Positions 49,283 through 57,010 of a stretch of 64,000 bases of DNA are shown here, piece after piece (the first letter of the stretch is position 1; each line of letters starts with the position of its first letter). Under the pieces are notes generated by a model. The model made no database searches. It worked only from the letters and a program-made list of their open reading frames with translations, and was not told the origin of the DNA. The stretch comes from Cyanobium sp. ATX 6F1. Its GTDB lineage: Bacteria; Cyanobacteriota; Cyanobacteriia; PCC-6307; Cyanobiaceae. The DNA lies in assembly GCF_024346315.1 (NCBI RefSeq), contig NZ_JAGQCS010000002.1, positions 62,001 through 126,000 on the forward strand, read 5' to 3'. The position numbers were made by a program, and so were the translations under genes.

Positions 49283-50593
49283 CTAGCGGTAGTCCTGGGT
49301 CTGGATCTGGGGCAAGCGTGCCTCGGGCCGAATGAAACGGTCCATCTGAGCCTCGAAAAACTTCCGGTTCGCCATCAGGTGCTCCGGATCGGTGTCGTCG
49401 AGGGGGTAGAGCAGCGCACAGCGCAGGGCCTGGATCACCGCAGAGGTGACGTTGTACATGGAGCGCTGGAAGGTGACACCCAGCTGGATCAGGATGTCGG
49501 CCTCACCGCGCTTGTGCTGGTCGTAGAGCTCCGTGAGGTAGGGCGGCAGGAAATGCAGCATGTCCTGCATCAGCAGCGTGGGGGGGATGCCCGCCGAGCC
49601 CACGGGGAAGACATCGGCATAGAGGATGCCGTAGTGGAAGTCGGCCTGCACTTCGGGCACCTGGCCGGCCTGGGCGTTGTAGCTCTTGGTGCCCCGGAAC
49701 GGCGCCGTGCGGTAGAAGACGGCCTCCACATAGGGAAGGGCCGCCTCATACAGCCAGGTGAACCCTTCAGATTTGGGAATGATCTCGAACATCTCCTCGC
49801 CGATGTACACATGGTGGTAAATCGGCCGGCCGGCCACGGCGAAGATGCCGTTGACGAGGAAGTCCATGGCGTCGGGCACCCCTTTGAATCCACCTTCGTC
49901 GTAGATGTCGCTCATCTCGAAGAAGACCGGGGCCATCACCTCCCAGAACAAGCCCAGGTTGGCGTAGTAACTCATTTTGCGAACCTGCTCCAGGAACATC
50001 TCCGGGAACAAGGCATGCAGCCCGAGCATCAGGGGATTGCCCTTGAAGTAGGCCTTGATCGCCCGGTCGGCGTTGGCCTTGTAGACGTCGGTTTCGAGGT
50101 AGTCGTAGAAGCGGCCACCCATGCCCTGGTGCCACAGCATGGCCTCCATGCAGGCCTCGGCGAACTCCATGTTGATGCGGTCGTGCCACAAATGGTGGAG
50201 AAGTTTGGACATCGGGCGGGTCTCGCCCTTGGCCATGAACTCCAGCAGCTCGGGGTGGGCCGTGGCTGGACCCCGCCAGATGCGCAGCTTGGAATCGTCG
50301 CCGGCGTAGGAGTTGGGCAGATCCAGATACTCCTGGGTGGGGAAGTACTTGAAGGCCGGCAGGGGATCAAGGAACACCCGCTCGGCGATGTAGAGCAGGT
50401 CGCGCCAGTAGAAGTCCATCGGCACGGCATAGGCCTTGTAGATGCCGATGATCTGCATCAGGTTTTCCGGCGTGTCCGGCAACATCGAACCGCCGGCCTC
50501 CAGCCGATGGATCACCTCGGCGTAGGGATGCTGCGAAGGAGGGATCAGGGGCGGACGGGTGGTGGTTTCGGCCGCGGCGGTAGGCGGAGTCAT
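49283..50593 (-). CDS. chpX: CO2 hydration protein (ChpX/CupB type)
   Basis: Subunit of the specialised NDH-1 complex that couples electron transport to hydration of CO2 to bicarbonate in the cytoplasm. The 436-residue sequence begins with a Thr/Pro/Ala-rich head and has the family blocks NLMQIIGIYKAYAVPMDFYW, FKYFPTQEYLDLPNSYAGDD, LHHLWHDRINMEFAEACMEA and GRPIYHHVYIGEEMFEIIP. Position after ndhF4-ndhD4 and the low-complexity start point to the constitutive CupB/ChpX form, the only CO2-uptake type commonly found in alpha-cyanobacteria. Its start overlaps the ndhD4 stop by four bases. Confidence 0.95.
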   Translation of the reverse strand: MTPPTAAAETTTRPPLIPPSQHPYAEVIHRLEAGGSMLPDTPENLMQIIGIYKAYAVPMDFYWRDLLYIAERVFLDPLPAFKYFPTQEYLDLPNSYAGDDSKLRIWRGPATAHPELLEFMAKGETRPMSKLLHHLWHDRINMEFAEACMEAMLWHQGMGGRFYDYLETDVYKANADRAIKAYFKGNPLMLGLHALFPEMFLEQVRKMSYYANLGLFWEVMAPVFFEMSDIYDEGGFKGVPDAMDFLVNGIFAVAGRPIYHHVYIGEEMFEIIPKSEGFTWLYEAALPYVEAVFYRTAPFRGTKSYNAQAGQVPEVQADFHYGILYADVFPVGSAGIPPTLLMQDMLHFLPPYLTELYDQHKRGEADILIQLGVTFQRSMYNVTSAVIQALRCALLYPLDDTDPEHLMANRKFFEAQMDRFIRPEARLPQIQTQDYR

Positions 50594-52116
50594 GAGACGG
50601 GGACCTCCAGGGGGAAGGTGAGGGTGGCCGAAGCCAGGAAGGTCTGGGCGGGGGAGGGAGGAATCTGCTGGGCCCGCAGGGCCAGGGCTGCCGTACTGCT
50701 TTCACTCCAGCCCACCAGGGAGGTGGGCCAGAGCCCGCCCACCACCACGAGCACGGTGAGCACCATGGCGGGAAGCCGTTCCTGCCAGGTGGTGCTCTGC
50801 CAGTCGGCCCGTTCGTTGTCGAGTCGACCGAAGCCCACCCGATTGAACAGGCGCACGGCATAGACGGCCGTGAAGCCCGAGGCCACCAGGCAGATCAGGG
50901 TGGCTCTGGGGAAGGCCGTCCAGCTTCCTTCGAACACCAGCAACTCCGCCGGGAAACCGGCCAGGCCGGGGATGCCGGCGGCGGCCATCAGGGCGAGCAG
51001 GAGCATGCCCAGGGTGAAGGGCAGGCCCCGGTAAGGATTGAGCAGGCCGGAGAGCTCCGGGATGGAGGTGGTGCCCGTGCGGCGCTCGATCAGCCCCACC
51101 GTGGCGAACAGCAGGGCCACGATCAGGCCGTGGGCCAGCACCTGGGCCACGGCCCCCTGCAGACTCATCGGGGTGGCGGCCGCCAGGGCCAACACCAGCA
51201 GGCCCATGTGACCGAGGGAGCTGTAGGCCATCAGCCGGCGCATGTCGCGCTGGGCGATGGCGTTGAGGGCGCCGTAGACGGCACTCACCGCTCCGGCGGC
51301 AGCGATCCAGGGGGACCAGGCCATCCAGGTATCGGGCAGGAAGCCCACCCCAAAGCGCAGCAGACCGTAGGCACCGAGCTTGGCCACGGCTCCGCCCAGC
51401 AGCATCACCACCGGCGTGGGGGCCTCGGCATAGGTGAGGGGCTGCCAGCCATGCAGCGGTACCACCGGCAGCTTCAGGCCGAAGCCGAGCAGCAACAGTC
51501 CGAGGATCACGGCGGAGGCCCGGGGGGTGATCTCCGCTCGCATCAGGTCGTCGTAGGCGAAGCTGAAGCCGTTGGCGTTGAACCAGCCCAGGGCGAGCAC
51601 ACCGGCCAGGAGACTCAGGCCCGACACCGCGCCATAGATCAGGTAGCGGATTGCCGCGCCGGCCCTCCGTTTTCCTCCCCAGATCGCCACCAGCAGAGTG
51701 GTGGGGATCAGCACGAGTTCGAAGGCCAGCACGAACAGCAGGGCGTTGCGGGCCAGGAAGGCGCCCACCACTCCGAGGTTGGTGGCCAGCATCAGCGGGA
51801 AGTAGAGCCGCGGACGGAGCTGGTCGGCGGGGGAGGCCAGAATGGCCAGGGCGGTGAGCAGGCCGCTCAGCACCACCAGAGGCAGGGAAAGGCCATCCAG
51901 ACCAAGATCAAAGGAGAGCCCCAGCTTCGGCAGCCAGGCCAGGTGCAGATCCGCCGGGGGGTACCACCAGCAGAGCAGGGCCAGCACCAACTGAAGGCCC
52001 GGGGCCAGGGCGGCAAGGCTGCGCACCAGCACCGGACGATTCTCCGGCAGCAGCGGCAGCAGCACTCCCGCCAGCAGGGGCAAGGCGACGAGCAGGGGGA
52101 GAACCAGGGGTGCCAT
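50590..52116 (-). CDS. ndhD4: NDH-1 subunit D4 (MrpD/NuoM-like)
   Basis: Antiporter-like proton-channel subunit of the CO2-uptake NDH-1 complex. 508 residues with about 14 hydrophobic segments; the conserved acidic residue lies in LAFELVLIPTTLLVAIWGGK and the central channel Lys/His region in PVVPLHGWQPLTYAEAPTPVV, then YSSLGHMGLLVLA. Paralogues NdhD1/D2 serve respiration; neighbours ndhF4 and chpX identify this as the D4 type. Overlaps ndhF4 by one base and chpX by four. Confidence 0.95.
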   Translation of the reverse strand: MAPLVLPLLVALPLLAGVLLPLLPENRPVLVRSLAALAPGLQLVLALLCWWYPPADLHLAWLPKLGLSFDLGLDGLSLPLVVLSGLLTALAILASPADQLRPRLYFPLMLATNLGVVGAFLARNALLFVLAFELVLIPTTLLVAIWGGKRRAGAAIRYLIYGAVSGLSLLAGVLALGWFNANGFSFAYDDLMRAEITPRASAVILGLLLLGFGLKLPVVPLHGWQPLTYAEAPTPVVMLLGGAVAKLGAYGLLRFGVGFLPDTWMAWSPWIAAAGAVSAVYGALNAIAQRDMRRLMAYSSLGHMGLLVLALAAATPMSLQGAVAQVLAHGLIVALLFATVGLIERRTGTTSIPELSGLLNPYRGLPFTLGMLLLALMAAAGIPGLAGFPAELLVFEGSWTAFPRATLICLVASGFTAVYAVRLFNRVGFGRLDNERADWQSTTWQERLPAMVLTVLVVVGGLWPTSLVGWSESSTAALALRAQQIPPSPAQTFLASATLTFPLEVPVS

Positions 52117-54020
52117 CAGCGGAGTGGAAGGAAGGGCACGGTGGGCTGGGAGACCAGCAGCCAGGCGGCCATCAGCAGCACGCCCAGCAGCAGGGTGAGG
52201 GCATAGGCCTGGGTGCGGCCGGATGTGGTGAAACTGAGTCGGCGGGCCCCCTCCATGGCGGCGCCACCGGTGGCGCCGCTGAATCCGTCCACCAGCCGCT
52301 CGTCGGTCCAGGCGCTGAGGCGGGAAAGGGCCACCACGGCGCCCACCACGGTGCGTTGGTAGAAGCGCTCGGTCTGCATGTCATGGGCCAGCCAGTCCTG
52401 CAGTCCGCCGAGGATGGTCGGAAGGTGGGCCAGGGGATGGGGACGTAGATAGAAGACCGCTGACAGTCCGCCACCTACCAGGGTGGAGAGCAGCAGGGGC
52501 CAGGCCATCGGACCCCAGCCAGGCAGGGGCGTGAGGGCATAGAGGCCGTTGCGCACCAGCAGCTGGGGCAGGTGCAGGGTCACCCCCATCAGCACGACGG
52601 TGGGCAGCACCATCAGCCAGAGGGCCTCGGGTGAGCGGGTGGTGAACGGCGATGGGCGGCCGGCCCAGATCAACCCGAACACCCTGATCAGGCCAGCACT
52701 GATCAGGGCATTGGTGAGCAACACCAGGCTGCCCAGGAGGATCGGGCGGTCGCTGGCGCTGGTCAGGGCCATCAGCTCGCGCAGGGCGGCGAAGCCTCCG
52801 AAGGGAGGCAGGGCGATCAGGCCGGCGGCACCGGTGAGGAAGGCGAGGCCGATCAGGGGCCGGCGGCTCCAGAGGCCACCGAGCTTGGTGAGGTCCTGGG
52901 TCACGTTGGTGATCACGATCGTGCCGATCGAGAGCAGCATCAGGGCCATCGGCAGGGGATACACCAACAAAAGGTGATCGGCCGTGTCGATGCCGCCCAG
53001 GCCCACCGCCATGAACAGCAGCCCCATCCAGCTGGTCACGAGGAAGGAAAGCGCGCGCTTGACATCGATCTGGGCCAGGGCGATCAGGGCCCCGACCACG
53101 GCACTGGTGCCGCCCACCACCACGAGCACTGTCTGCACGAGGGGGCTCAGGGCGATCAGGGGCTGGAGACGCAGCAGCACCCAGGCGCCACCGACCACCA
53201 CCACGGAATTGCGCAGCACGGTGGAGGGCAGGGGGCTCTCCATCGCCTCATCGAGCCAGAGGTGCAGGGGGATCTGGGCACATTTGCCCATCGGCCCGGC
53301 GATCAGGGCCAGCAGGATCAGGGTGACGCCGGCAGGAAGTTCGTCGGGGTTCTGCCCCGCGGCCCAGGTGGCCAGGCCATGGAAATTCCAGGTGCCGGTC
53401 ACCGGCAGGATGGCGATCAGCCCAGCCAGCAGGATCAGGTCGCCGATCCGCTTGGTGAGGAAGGCATCGCGGGCTCCTTTCACCACCAGGGGCTGGTTGT
53501 ACCAGGTGCCCACGATCAGGTACGTGCCCAGCGTGAGCAGCTCGAGGATCACGTAGCTGAAGAACAGGGAATCGGTGAGCACCAGGGCGCAGAGGCCGGC
53601 CTCGAAGAAGCTGAGGCTGCCGAAGAAGCGCGGCCAGCCCCAATCCATCTCCATGTAGCCGATCGCGAAGATCTGAGTGAGCACGTGCAGGCCCGTGATC
53701 ACCGTCATCGCGATCAGGGCGGGCTCAGTGATGATGCCCTCGAACCCGATCGAAAGGCCGGCGGTCGAAAGCCAGGTCCAGCCGAAGGTGAGGGGTTTGT
53801 AGAGGGCGCTCGGCCCCGCTGCCGCATTCGAGAGCAGACCCATCAGGGCGAGCACGCTGTGGACGAAGGCCACGCTCACCATCAGCAGGTTGAGGTAGCC
53901 GCAGGGGCGTGGCCCCGTGCGCCAGATCAGGCCGGGCGACCAGGCCGAAGAGGCCACGGCGGCCAGCAACGGGTAGAGGGGAATCAGCCAGGCCGTCTCA
54001 GTGAAAAAGACGGTCATCAA
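52116..54020 (-). CDS. ndhF4: NDH-1 subunit F4 (NuoL-like)
   Basis: Large antiporter-like subunit at the distal end of the CO2-uptake NDH-1 membrane arm. 634 residues, many hydrophobic segments, with the characteristic block GPMGKCAQIPLHLWLDEAMESPLPSTVL (family: KSAQxPLHxWLPDAMEGPTPVS), where DAMEGPTPVS is altered to DEAMESPLPS as in NdhF3/F4 forms. First gene of the operon ndhF4-ndhD4-chpX-fasciclin-DUF2062. The upstream 163-base gap shared with the divergent antiporter gene carries inverted repeats that may hold the promoter. Confidence 0.95.
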   Translation of the reverse strand: MMTVFFTETAWLIPLYPLLAAVASSAWSPGLIWRTGPRPCGYLNLLMVSVAFVHSVLALMGLLSNAAAGPSALYKPLTFGWTWLSTAGLSIGFEGIITEPALIAMTVITGLHVLTQIFAIGYMEMDWGWPRFFGSLSFFEAGLCALVLTDSLFFSYVILELLTLGTYLIVGTWYNQPLVVKGARDAFLTKRIGDLILLAGLIAILPVTGTWNFHGLATWAAGQNPDELPAGVTLILLALIAGPMGKCAQIPLHLWLDEAMESPLPSTVLRNSVVVVGGAWVLLRLQPLIALSPLVQTVLVVVGGTSAVVGALIALAQIDVKRALSFLVTSWMGLLFMAVGLGGIDTADHLLLVYPLPMALMLLSIGTIVITNVTQDLTKLGGLWSRRPLIGLAFLTGAAGLIALPPFGGFAALRELMALTSASDRPILLGSLVLLTNALISAGLIRVFGLIWAGRPSPFTTRSPEALWLMVLPTVVLMGVTLHLPQLLVRNGLYALTPLPGWGPMAWPLLLSTLVGGGLSAVFYLRPHPLAHLPTILGGLQDWLAHDMQTERFYQRTVVGAVVALSRLSAWTDERLVDGFSGATGGAAMEGARRLSFTTSGRTQAYALTLLLGVLLMAAWLLVSQPTVPFLPLR

Positions 54021-54053: not shown

Positions 54054-54107
54054 CGAACACTAATTACGGCGTCGAGTGTTTGGGTGGGAAGGGGCAACGG
54101 CGTTGCC
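54054..54107. promoter_or_regulatory. Two inverted repeats in the ndhF4/antiporter divergent region
   Basis: CGAACACT (54054-54061) and AGTGTTTG (54075-54082) form an 8-base dyad with one G-T pair and a 13-base spacer, 34 bases upstream of the ndhF4 start. GGCAAC-GGC-GTTGCC (54093-54107) is a second, tight dyad. Both lie between the divergent start codons and are candidate operators or leader hairpins for low-CO2 control; no known CcmR/NdhR consensus is matched. Confidence 0.4.
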
Positions 54108-54183
54108 TATCGGTCAACCAAGTTCTGATTATCCCCCCGCCTGGTTAGGGTCCGGCGCGACCTTTGCGAACTGCCATCAGCCC

Positions 54184-55383
54184 ATGGCCTCCCCCACGGT
54201 GCTGATCAGCCTTCTCGCCCTGCTGCTTGCGGTCGTGGTGGCCAGGCGTCTGCAGGGCCTGCTGGGCAGCGCCGCCCTGCCGGCGATCCTGCTGGAACTC
54301 ACGGTCGGCTTCCTGCTGGGCAACACCGTGCTCTCCTACGAGCGCCTCAACGGGGTGTCGGGCATCGCGGAGCTGGGGGTGATCAGCCTGTTCTTTCTGG
54401 TCGGCCTGGAAACCAGAGGCGATCTGCTGGCCGATCACCGCACTGACATCCTGCGCACGGTGCTGATCAGCAGCCTGGCGCCGCTGCTGTTCTTCGTGCC
54501 GGTGAGGGCCCTCACCGGCGCCAGCACCGCCCAGGTGCTGCTGTTCCTGGCGGTGGTGGCCGCCACCGGCACTGGCGTGACCCTGCGCACCCTTCGCAGC
54601 CTGGGGGCGATGGCCACTCCCTCGGCGCGGCTGCTGGTGGGTGTTTCGGTGCTGGATGATCTTCCGGCGGTGGGCCTCCTGGCCCTGGCCACCTTCGTGG
54701 CGGGGCGATCCGGAGAAGGCACCAGCGGAGCAGGCGCGCTGGCCGCGAGCGGCCCCTTCGCCAGCGGCGGACTGGGCTGGATCGCCCTGGGCCTGGCGCT
54801 GGCCGGCCTCTGCTACGGGCTGGTGAAGGTCTTCGTGCAGCGCTGCGGCCCCAGGAGGCTGGGCCCGTTTGCCCTGGTGTTGCTGATGATCGCCAGCGCC
54901 GCAGCGGGGGAGACGTTCGGACTCACCGGCCTCCTTGGGGCCCTGTTCGGAGGGATGCTGCTGGCTCGGCTCAGCCCGCCCGATGCCGCCGTGGAGGACA
55001 ACCTGGTGGTGTTCTCCGATGTGTTCGTGCCGCTCTACTTCGTGACCGTGGGCATGCGGGTGAAGCTGGAATCACTGCTGAGCCCGGCGGCCTGGCAACT
55101 GGCGGGCCTGCTGATCGCCATGGCCCTGATTAGCAAGCTTCTCTGTTGGTATGGGATCGGAAAAGCGGCCCGCTCCCAGGGCGTTGACCCCTGGACGGTG
55201 GTGTTCGGCCTGATCCCCCGCGGTCTGCCCGGCCTGGTGTTCGCCGGCGCTGCTCTCAAGGCCGGCTTGATCGATGACAACGCCTTTTCGGCGCTGGTGA
55301 TCATGGTGACCAGCACCACCGTGCTGGGGCTGTTGCTTTTGAATCGCCGCGTTCAGAGTCTGCGGCGGAAGGCGTCGCCGTAG
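54184..55383 (+). CDS. Na+(K+)/H+ antiporter, CPA2 family
   Basis: A 399-residue membrane protein with 12 or so hydrophobic segments: LLELTVGFLLGNTVL, GVISLFFLVGLET and the ion-site region VSVLDDLPAVGLLALAT with the paired Asp residues of NapA/KefB-type exchangers. It lacks the cytoplasmic TrkA-N domain of KefB. Na+/H+ exchange would rebuild the sodium gradient used by the bicarbonate transporter SbtA 3 kb away; this connection is inferred from context. ATG 54184 chosen; the frame upstream is non-conserved. The 3' end overlaps the next gene by 31 bases. Confidence 0.9.
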   Translation: MASPTVLISLLALLLAVVVARRLQGLLGSAALPAILLELTVGFLLGNTVLSYERLNGVSGIAELGVISLFFLVGLETRGDLLADHRTDILRTVLISSLAPLLFFVPVRALTGASTAQVLLFLAVVAATGTGVTLRTLRSLGAMATPSARLLVGVSVLDDLPAVGLLALATFVAGRSGEGTSGAGALAASGPFASGGLGWIALGLALAGLCYGLVKVFVQRCGPRRLGPFALVLLMIASAAAGETFGLTGLLGALFGGMLLARLSPPDAAVEDNLVVFSDVFVPLYFVTVGMRVKLESLLSPAAWQLAGLLIAMALISKLLCWYGIGKAARSQGVDPWTVVFGLIPRGLPGLVFAGAALKAGLIDDNAFSALVIMVTSTTVLGLLLLNRRVQSLRRKASP

Positions 55384-55808
55384 GAACTGCGCTCGGCGTC
55401 AGCGTTGCTGCGGCTCAGCTTCCAGACATTGCGGCTGAGGCGGCGGGCCACCAGGCCTGCCCGCTCCACAAAGCCCGATCCGGGCCTTGCCCCCAGCAGC
55501 AGGCTCACCTCGGCCGTGCTCAAGGGGGCGCCGGTACGAATGGCCAGGTCGGTGAGTTCCAGGCGTTGGCGCAGGGCCGCTGAATCCAGCTGGCCCCCAT
55601 CGCCACCGTCATTCCAGACCAGGGGCGCCTCGCTGGCGTTGGCCCCCAGACGCTGCATCAACCCCAGACCGATGAAGGCGAGGGCCTGCTCTGGCTTGAC
55701 GCCCTGGTCCACGGCCTGGGCAATCCAGTCGGAGAAAGTGATGCTCTCGGCCTCGGAGCGGAGTGGCTGGGTCGGGGTGGTGCGTTTCGTGGCCACGGCG
55801 GGTTCCAC
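55353..55808 (-). CDS. Hypothetical protein beside the carboxysome cluster
   Basis: A 151-residue soluble protein that I do not recognise. The N-terminal 20 residues are Thr/Pro-rich, followed by helical sequence (ITFSDWIAQAVDQGVKPEQALAF), an acidic Gly-rich loop (WNDGGDGGQLD) and a C-terminal half that reads like a winged-helix or helix-turn-helix (PLSTAEVSLLLGARPGSGFVER, then [17 protein letters not shown]). A DNA-binding role is an inference from that pattern. The last 31 bases overlap the antiporter gene, and the 55-residue gene lies upstream on the same strand with 78 bases between. Confidence 0.7.
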   Translation of the reverse strand: MEPAVATKRTTPTQPLRSEAESITFSDWIAQAVDQGVKPEQALAFIGLGLMQRLGANASEAPLVWNDGGDGGQLDSAALRQRLELTDLAIRTGAPLSTAEVSLLLGARPGSGFVERAGLVARRLSRNVWKLSRSNADAERSSYGDAFRRRL

Positions 55809-55886
55809 AGGGTGCCTGGGCGGAAGGTACCCGCTTCTGCCGGTGGCGCAAGGGGCCGCCCCCAGCCGGTCGAGAGCAACCTGGGG

Positions 55887-56054
55887 TCACCCCACCAGCT
55901 GGCGGCGCCGGGCCCGCCTCAGCCAGCTGGCCACGCTCTGGTCGCGGTCGGCGAACTTCTGCAGGTAGATGCGCTCAGCGAGGGAAACGGGGTGGTCGTT
56001 GCCGATGCGCTCGATGATCGCCTGCAGGCGCAGGCGGGTGGCGGACGTGAGCAT
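55887..56054 (-). CDS. Small 55-residue basic protein, divergent from csoS1D
   Basis: ATG at 56054 (minus strand) to TGA at 55887 encodes 55 residues, starting MLTSATRLRLQAIIERIGND, then HPVSLAERIYLQKFADRDQS, and a basic end WLRRARRRQLVG. The composition (helical, no Gly/Pro runs, charged) is that of a real protein rather than antisense noise, and its frame ends cleanly. It lies between the 151-residue gene and csoS1D, with csoS1D divergent. I do not recognise a family. Its place at the edge of the carboxysome cluster suggests, but does not show, a role there. Confidence 0.66.
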   Translation of the reverse strand: MLTSATRLRLQAIIERIGNDHPVSLAERIYLQKFADRDQSVASWLRRARRRQLVG

Positions 56055-56089
56055 GAAACAGACGCCGTAGATGAACCTTGATAGCGACG

Positions 56090-56142
56090 ACCCCAGGCGC
56101 CGTCGTGTCGATGGGTACCTTTTGCTCGCCGGCGTCTGGGGT
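56090..56142. promoter_or_regulatory. Long inverted repeat upstream of csoS1D
   Basis: CCCCAGGCGCCG (56091-56102) pairs with CGGCGTCTGGGG (56130-56141), 12 bases with one G-T pair, extended by A56090-T56142; the spacer is 27 bases. It sits in the 167-base gap between the divergent 55-residue gene and csoS1D, 80 bases before csoS1D. A possible -10 (TAAGAT, 56161-56166) follows. It could be an operator or an RNA stem-loop. Confidence 0.45.
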
Positions 56143-56221
56143 TCCCAACGGGGCGCAAGTTAAGATCGCCTCCAGCTCCTCGCCCATGGCCTGACGAGCG
56201 GCCATCCCAGCCCCCGGAGCC

Positions 56222-57010
56222 ATGGATCGTCTCTCCAGCCTCGACGACCCCCTACGGAGGCGACGACCCGGTTCACTCAGCGGCGGCACGCCGATCACCG
56301 GCACCCAGATCGACATCGAGTCCAGCGGTCCGAGCTGCGTCACCATCACCACCGACAGCGAAGGCCACCGCCTCGCCAACAGCAGCGGTGCGGTGCAGTC
56401 GATCCAGCTGCGCACCTACGTCTTCATCGACTCCCTGCAGCCCCAACTGGCCGCCTACATGGGCACGGTGTCCCAAGGGTTCCTGCCGATCCCCGGTGAC
56501 GCCTGCCTCTGGTTGGAGGTGTCCCCCGGCATGGCCGTGCACCGTGTCACCGACATCGCCCTCAAGGCCAGCACCGTGCGCCTGGGACAGATGGTGGTGG
56601 AGCGCGCCTTTGGCTCCCTGGCGCTTTACCACCGCGACCAGAGCAACGTCCGCCACTCCGGCCAGGTGGTGCTGGAGGCGATCGGCAGCAGCATCGATCG
56701 CCGCAACAACTGCCACGTCAGCTGGACGGAGATCATCCGGGCGATCACCCCCGACCATGCGGTGCTGATCAACCGTCAGAACCGCCGCGGTTCGATGATC
56801 CAGGCCGGGATGAGCATGTTCATCCTTGAGACCGAACCCGCCGGCTACGTGCTGATCGCCGCCAATGACGCCGAGAAGGCGGCCAACATCACCGTCGTCG
56901 ACGTCAAGGCCGTCGGAGCCTTCGGCCGACTCATCCTCGCCGGCCGTGAAGGAGATGTGGAGGAGGCGGCAGCGGCGGCCATGCGCGCCGTGGCCCAGAT
57001 CAACGCCTGA
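56222..57010 (+). CDS. csoS1D: Carboxysome shell protein CsoS1D (tandem BMC domains)
   Basis: Pseudohexameric shell trimer with a large gated pore, thought to admit metabolites such as RuBP to the carboxysome. 262 residues: a Ser/Arg-rich N-terminal arm of about 50 residues, BMC domain 1 ([20 protein letters not shown] to about 150) and BMC domain 2 ([20 protein letters not shown] to the end, with [21 protein letters not shown]). Conserved gate residues Glu and Arg ([19 protein letters not shown]) are in place. It is separated from the main cso operon by rdgB and sbtAB, as in other alpha-cyanobacteria. 3' overlap of 11 bases with rdgB. Confidence 0.95.

Follow-up and report, generated by a model that had tools for sequence, protein, structure and literature searches.

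A 55-residue open reading frame (ORF) occupies positions 55887 to 56054 on the minus strand of the 64,000-nucleotide stretch of DNA analyzed here (the window), divergent from csoS1D (56222–57010, plus strand), which encodes a tandem BMC-domain shell protein recognized by BMC/CcmP-type matches. An earlier note on this DNA described the ORF as an overlooked gene and proposed that its product could be an uncharacterized carboxysome assembly or regulatory factor. The locus raises two questions: whether so short an ORF is a gene at all and, if it is, whether its position beside csoS1D reflects its function. Both the coordinates and the divergent arrangement were confirmed.

Evidence for a conserved small gene

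The window has a GC content of 67.5%, and 121 ORFs of at least 30 residues overlap its last 12 kb. Spurious ORFs of this size are plentiful in such a sequence; length is uninformative, and conservation has to carry the case for a gene. Of 201 Cyanobiaceae genomes, 117 gave matches in a six-frame protein search, with homologs across many genera showing 60–84% identity and the same start; by profile search, the genome containing the window holds one copy. The ORF begins with ATG, and GC content at its three codon positions (0.69/0.47/0.96) is coding-like. Comparison of the first 52 codons between the two genomes of the window genus (the window and its sister genome, G051) yielded 18.7 synonymous differences over 38.3 sites and 10.3 nonsynonymous differences over 117.7 sites, corresponding to a dN/dS of 0.12 (Fisher p = 2.4e-7). 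These data identify the ORF as a genuine, conserved small gene and as the domain-only form of a larger family. That it is instead an antisense or chance ORF is hardly credible, given the shared start of homologs in many genera, the purifying selection, and the confidently predicted fold. The earlier note had named two outcomes that would count against its reading, homologs in very close strains only or a substitution ratio near one; neither occurred, as homologs extend far beyond close strains and the ratio is well short of that value.

The predicted protein is basic (net charge +6, pI 11.6), and AlphaFold models it as a three-helix bundle (residues 4–18, 25–35, and 39–54) with a pLDDT of 93.5, in keeping with the original description of a charged, basic, helical product. 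Querying Pfam and NCBIfam with the window protein and with all 45 family members returned scattered chance matches only. A PDB sequence profile search identified nothing below E 0.8, a plasmid search gave no family match, and in structure searches with both the full-length and 55-residue models no hit reached E 0.001.

The small gene and csoS1D are separated by a divergent intergenic region of 167 nt (56055–56221), which is 74% identical to that of G051. The long inverted repeat previously reported here does exist, as an imperfect repeat (56090–56142) with 16-nt arms (56090–56105 and 56127–56142; 88% complementary) around a 21-nt loop. However, when folded as single-stranded DNA it is only modestly better than shuffled sequences (z −2.0; matched by 10 of 200 shuffles), and G051 does not conserve its arms. 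Scanning the region for Rfam families, promoters, and terminators gave only chance-level results. The repeat appears to be near chance level, a weak signal that should not yet be taken as a regulatory element.

Position and co-distribution with csoS1D

A carboxysome assembly or regulatory factor might be expected to share the divergent control region with csoS1D and to be co-regulated through it. The adjacency is real: the small gene directly adjoins csoS1D in 17 of 117 carriers, spanning several genera and always in the same divergent orientation, and lies approximately 1.2 kb away in three more, an arrangement that could reflect a functional tie. However, this position is optional. The two genes are far apart or on different contigs in most of the remaining carriers (distances were paired by hand from listed coordinates), and in Prochlorococcus and other Cyanobium lineages the small gene sits among quite different neighbors. 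Its distribution across alpha-cyanobacteria likewise fails to follow the cso locus; among 130 good genomes, csoS1D is present in 128 and the small gene in 75. Genomes with an intact csoS1D that lack it include close sisters of carriers (G009 has the small gene, and G091 does not; G133 has it, and G064 does not). Patchy presence and shifting position are not the behavior expected of a dedicated carboxysome factor, and the family is, in addition, near-universal in cyanophages. On this evidence, the carboxysome role put forward in the earlier note is highly improbable, and proximity to csoS1D is better explained by the chance history of the locus.

The gene that does accompany csoS1D almost constantly, in divergent orientation, is a 151-residue ORF (55353–55808, minus strand), which lies downstream of the small gene on the same strand. 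It was found near csoS1D in 41 of the 44 csoS1D loci compared, with the small gene appearing as an optional insert between the two in some genomes only. The 151-residue ORF is present in 21 of 21 Cyanobiaceae genomes and in none of 173 genomes from the rest of the class; it returned no family match. Its distribution and position suggest it as a better candidate for an uncharacterized carboxysome-linked gene than the 55-residue ORF.

In G091, a tail-only fragment of the small gene (L186:2472–2519) remains between csoS1D and the 151-residue gene; with the whole gene present in its close relative G009, this fragment represents a recent loss in progress. Beyond the 151-residue gene, the window contains NDH-1-subunit-like genes and a cation-proton-antiporter-like gene (50590–54020 and 54076–55383); at this place, chlN- and chlB-like genes are found instead in several relatives (names read off the sequences).

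Host and cyanophage members of the family

Outside the window genus, the usual relatives are full-length proteins of about 100 residues, in which an N-terminal domain of some 53 residues is followed by a linker carrying a GxDxLLxxLDLG-like motif and then by an acidic tail ending in DDLGDWFxGAPxWLRRS. Tail residues W89, F90, and W96 are invariant across 45 host members, and the fixed aromatic residues of the tail are common to host and phage members. Mean net charges for the domain and tail are +5.7 and −5.7, respectively, in hosts, and +4.2 and −6.7 in phages. In AlphaFold models of the full-length protein, the domain is predicted as confidently as in the 55-residue form, and the tail with low confidence.

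The family is limited to Cyanobiaceae and their phages. By profile search, 107 of the order's 150 good genomes carry it; when 242 genomes were drawn from across the class, it was confined to Cyanobiaceae, with no occurrence in the approximately 213 genomes of other cyanobacterial families. Among hosts, its presence is patchy, with losses, duplications, and scattered positions. Many Prochlorococcus genomes contain a domain-only paralog of 51–62 residues (L193–L211, L042, and L048) in varied neighborhoods, and these forms are less basic, with net charges from −1 to +6. In one Prochlorococcus-type genome (L206; G071:C1:1036065–1045000), three identical copies of the short paralog lie about 2.4 kb apart, reflecting either tandem triplication or an assembly effect.

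A tblastn search of phage records with the window protein returned 319 matches, all in cyanophages, and a search with Syn9 gp136 identified 460 phage records with full-length homologs. Cyanophage records with a Syn9-like gp23 number approximately 470; judged from these record totals, which include duplicate RefSeq and GenBank entries, nearly all T4-like cyanophages carry the family. The homolog in P-RSM4 bears the cluster name T4-LIKE GC 49 (T4-GC 49), and in PHROGs the family corresponds to phrog_507, which is labelled as unknown function. This profile matches the window protein at E 2.5e-10 over profile positions 1–52, placing its N-terminal domain within the family; as the acidic tail is missing, the window protein is a domain-only variant.

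Phylogenetic analysis recovered all phage copies as a single clade (100/98); its attachment to marine Synechococcus copies is not firm (87/90). The window gene groups, also not firmly (89/73), with other csoS1D-adjacent copies, and the Prochlorococcus short forms are placed outside the window genus. This topology suggests repeated origins of the domain-only form, with at least two on the tree among hosts.

In phages, the gene occurs between gp23 and gp3 or near gp46 and cobS, and elsewhere beside hli, PTOX, pebS, plastocyanin, CpeT, or tRNA genes; these varied neighbors indicate that its position is flexible in phages too. Annotated starts in S-CAM3 (L052:3082–3315) and S-SZBM1 (L062:4082–4318) omit the first 27 residues of the homolog, and the conserved frame begins upstream of them; phrog_6677 (77 positions) similarly looks like the same phage protein with a late start. 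Scans of IMG/VR with host-type patterns returned none, which we attribute to the patterns, as annotated phages have the gene.

Several core genes of T4-like cyanophages are still hypothetical; a comparative study describes the remaining cyanophage core genes as encoding hypothetical proteins, and its main text does not discuss the T4-GC 49 cluster (PMC3037559). We found no functional report in the literature on gp136, T4-GC 49, or a small csoS1D neighbor. The phage homolog SSZBM1_164 is unnamed in the text and table of the S-SZBM1 virion proteome paper (PMC9146016), which argues weakly against its being a virion protein. A connection with PMM0819, a phage-response gene, did not hold, as the one paper found to name that gene describes other genes. 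The absence of an annotated gp33 between 75 and 169 kb in the Syn9 record led us to consider gp136 as the missing late-transcription coactivator (gp33); nothing positive favored this assignment.

Tail loss and proposed function

The window protein stops at residue 55, the end of the N-terminal domain, and lacks the acidic tail with its DWF...W.R motif. Both genomes of the genus stop at the same position with different codons (TGA in the window, TAA in G051). Directly behind the stop (55861–55886, minus strand), the family profile reads through to model position 64, a weak indication that this stretch may be a decayed linker; G051 has roughly 110 nt behind its stop that are missing from the window, and no intact tail. 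The simplest account of these sequences would be that the protein was truncated once, in the common ancestor of the two genomes, and that the tail then decayed. If truncation happened once, then the whole of the synonymous divergence between the two genomes, which is near 0.8, arose after tail loss.

Tail loss could alternatively have inactivated the gene, leaving a decaying remnant whose domain persists merely for lack of time. The absence of the tail from both genomes is compatible with this account, as are the complete losses seen among relatives, G091 with its tail fragment included. Constraint also looks weaker than in most full-length pairs: over these codons, most such pairs of similar dS have dN/dS values of 0.02 to 0.08, though values of 0.20 and 0.27 occur in two other pairs, and the value for csoS1D between the same two genomes is 0.085. 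In addition, G051 alters R50, a residue at least 90% conserved in the first family alignment. However, the low dN/dS of the window gene is sustained over a substantial synonymous divergence, the positions of start and stop are retained, the domain fold is complete and confident, and stable domain-only paralogs of 51–62 residues, a range into which the still-constrained window protein falls, exist elsewhere. Together, constraint, the confident domain, and domain-only relatives make a pure remnant less likely on the base of two genomes, and we consider it rather unlikely. Within this one genome pair, constraint persists after truncation, perhaps slightly relaxed.

Retention of the family by nearly all T4-like cyanophages and many hosts, and by no other cyanobacteria tested, probably reflects a target common to host and phage. 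Most likely, the protein serves as a small regulator or adaptor of host machinery on which cyanophages also draw, rather than of the carboxysome. Under one possible mechanism, the basic helical domain would dock on an acidic partner, either nucleic acid or a protein machine (RNA polymerase or the ribosome, for example), and the acidic, aromatic tail would recruit a second partner or fold back to restrain the domain. The host protein would serve as a small regulator or adaptor, and the full-length copies in phages would let them direct the same machine; a host form without the tail would still bind the target but would no longer recruit the second partner or be restrained. Charge and motif in the domain and tail do not by themselves identify the target, and the less basic Prochlorococcus forms suggest that a role in nucleic-acid binding may not fit all members. 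Taken alone, this mechanism is tentative and less likely than not.

A tail-less host copy might also act as an antagonist, a naturally occurring dominant negative that competes with phage gp136 for its target. A full-length homolog in nearly all T4-like cyanophages, the apparent repeated origin of domain-only host forms, and patchy host presence with loss and duplication are all compatible with such a role. However, many hosts keep full-length forms, which under the same logic would be no antagonists, and PADLOC profiles returned 0 families for the window protein and for host and phage homologs; antagonism is improbable on these data. A wider proposal, in which the repeatedly made tail-less copies would be either dominant-negative competitors of gp136 or a stripped regulator of the phage-hijacked machine, is quite unlikely as well. 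Our favored explanation overall, held with modest confidence, is that the window gene encodes a domain-only member of a host–phage adaptor or regulator family, and that its adjacency to csoS1D is accidental.

The interest of this locus lies in that host–phage family and not in the carboxysome neighborhood. T4-GC 49, a hypothetical cyanophage core gene, is now tied to a host family with a defined domain, a defined tail, and natural tail-less variants, and this link opens its function to direct testing in laboratory Synechococcus strains. The carboxysome question shifts to the 151-residue neighbor, which does track csoS1D.

The best structural resemblance of the window protein is to the N-terminal helical domain of pyrimidine-nucleoside phosphorylases, with a Z of 4.7 and rmsd of 1.8 over 49 residues for 3h5q, and a Z of 4.2 and rmsd of 1.7 over 47 residues for 5oln; at 21–22% identity, with Z values too low to carry weight for helical bundles and Foldseek E values of 4.2 and 7.9, which are not significant for a three-helix bundle, the modeled resemblance is a lead only, and in the window protein no catalytic domain follows. 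csoS1D and HAM1 are cyanobacterial alpha-carboxysome accessory genes (PMC4207490, PMC4499774) with which the small gene shares a neighborhood in the window genome; it is, however, not co-distributed with csoS1D and occurs in phages. Domain-only architecture and homology are common to the window protein and the short Prochlorococcus paralog, though the window gene sits instead in the csoS1D-adjacent group of the tree. The same architecture is seen in phrog_19028, a 60-position phage family also labelled as unknown function, which matches the window protein at E 5e-5. With Syn9 gp136, T4-GC 49, and phrog_507, the window protein shares a homologous N-terminal domain and the same start; phage and most host members, however, carry the acidic tail with its D..DWF...W.R motif, and the window protein ends before it.
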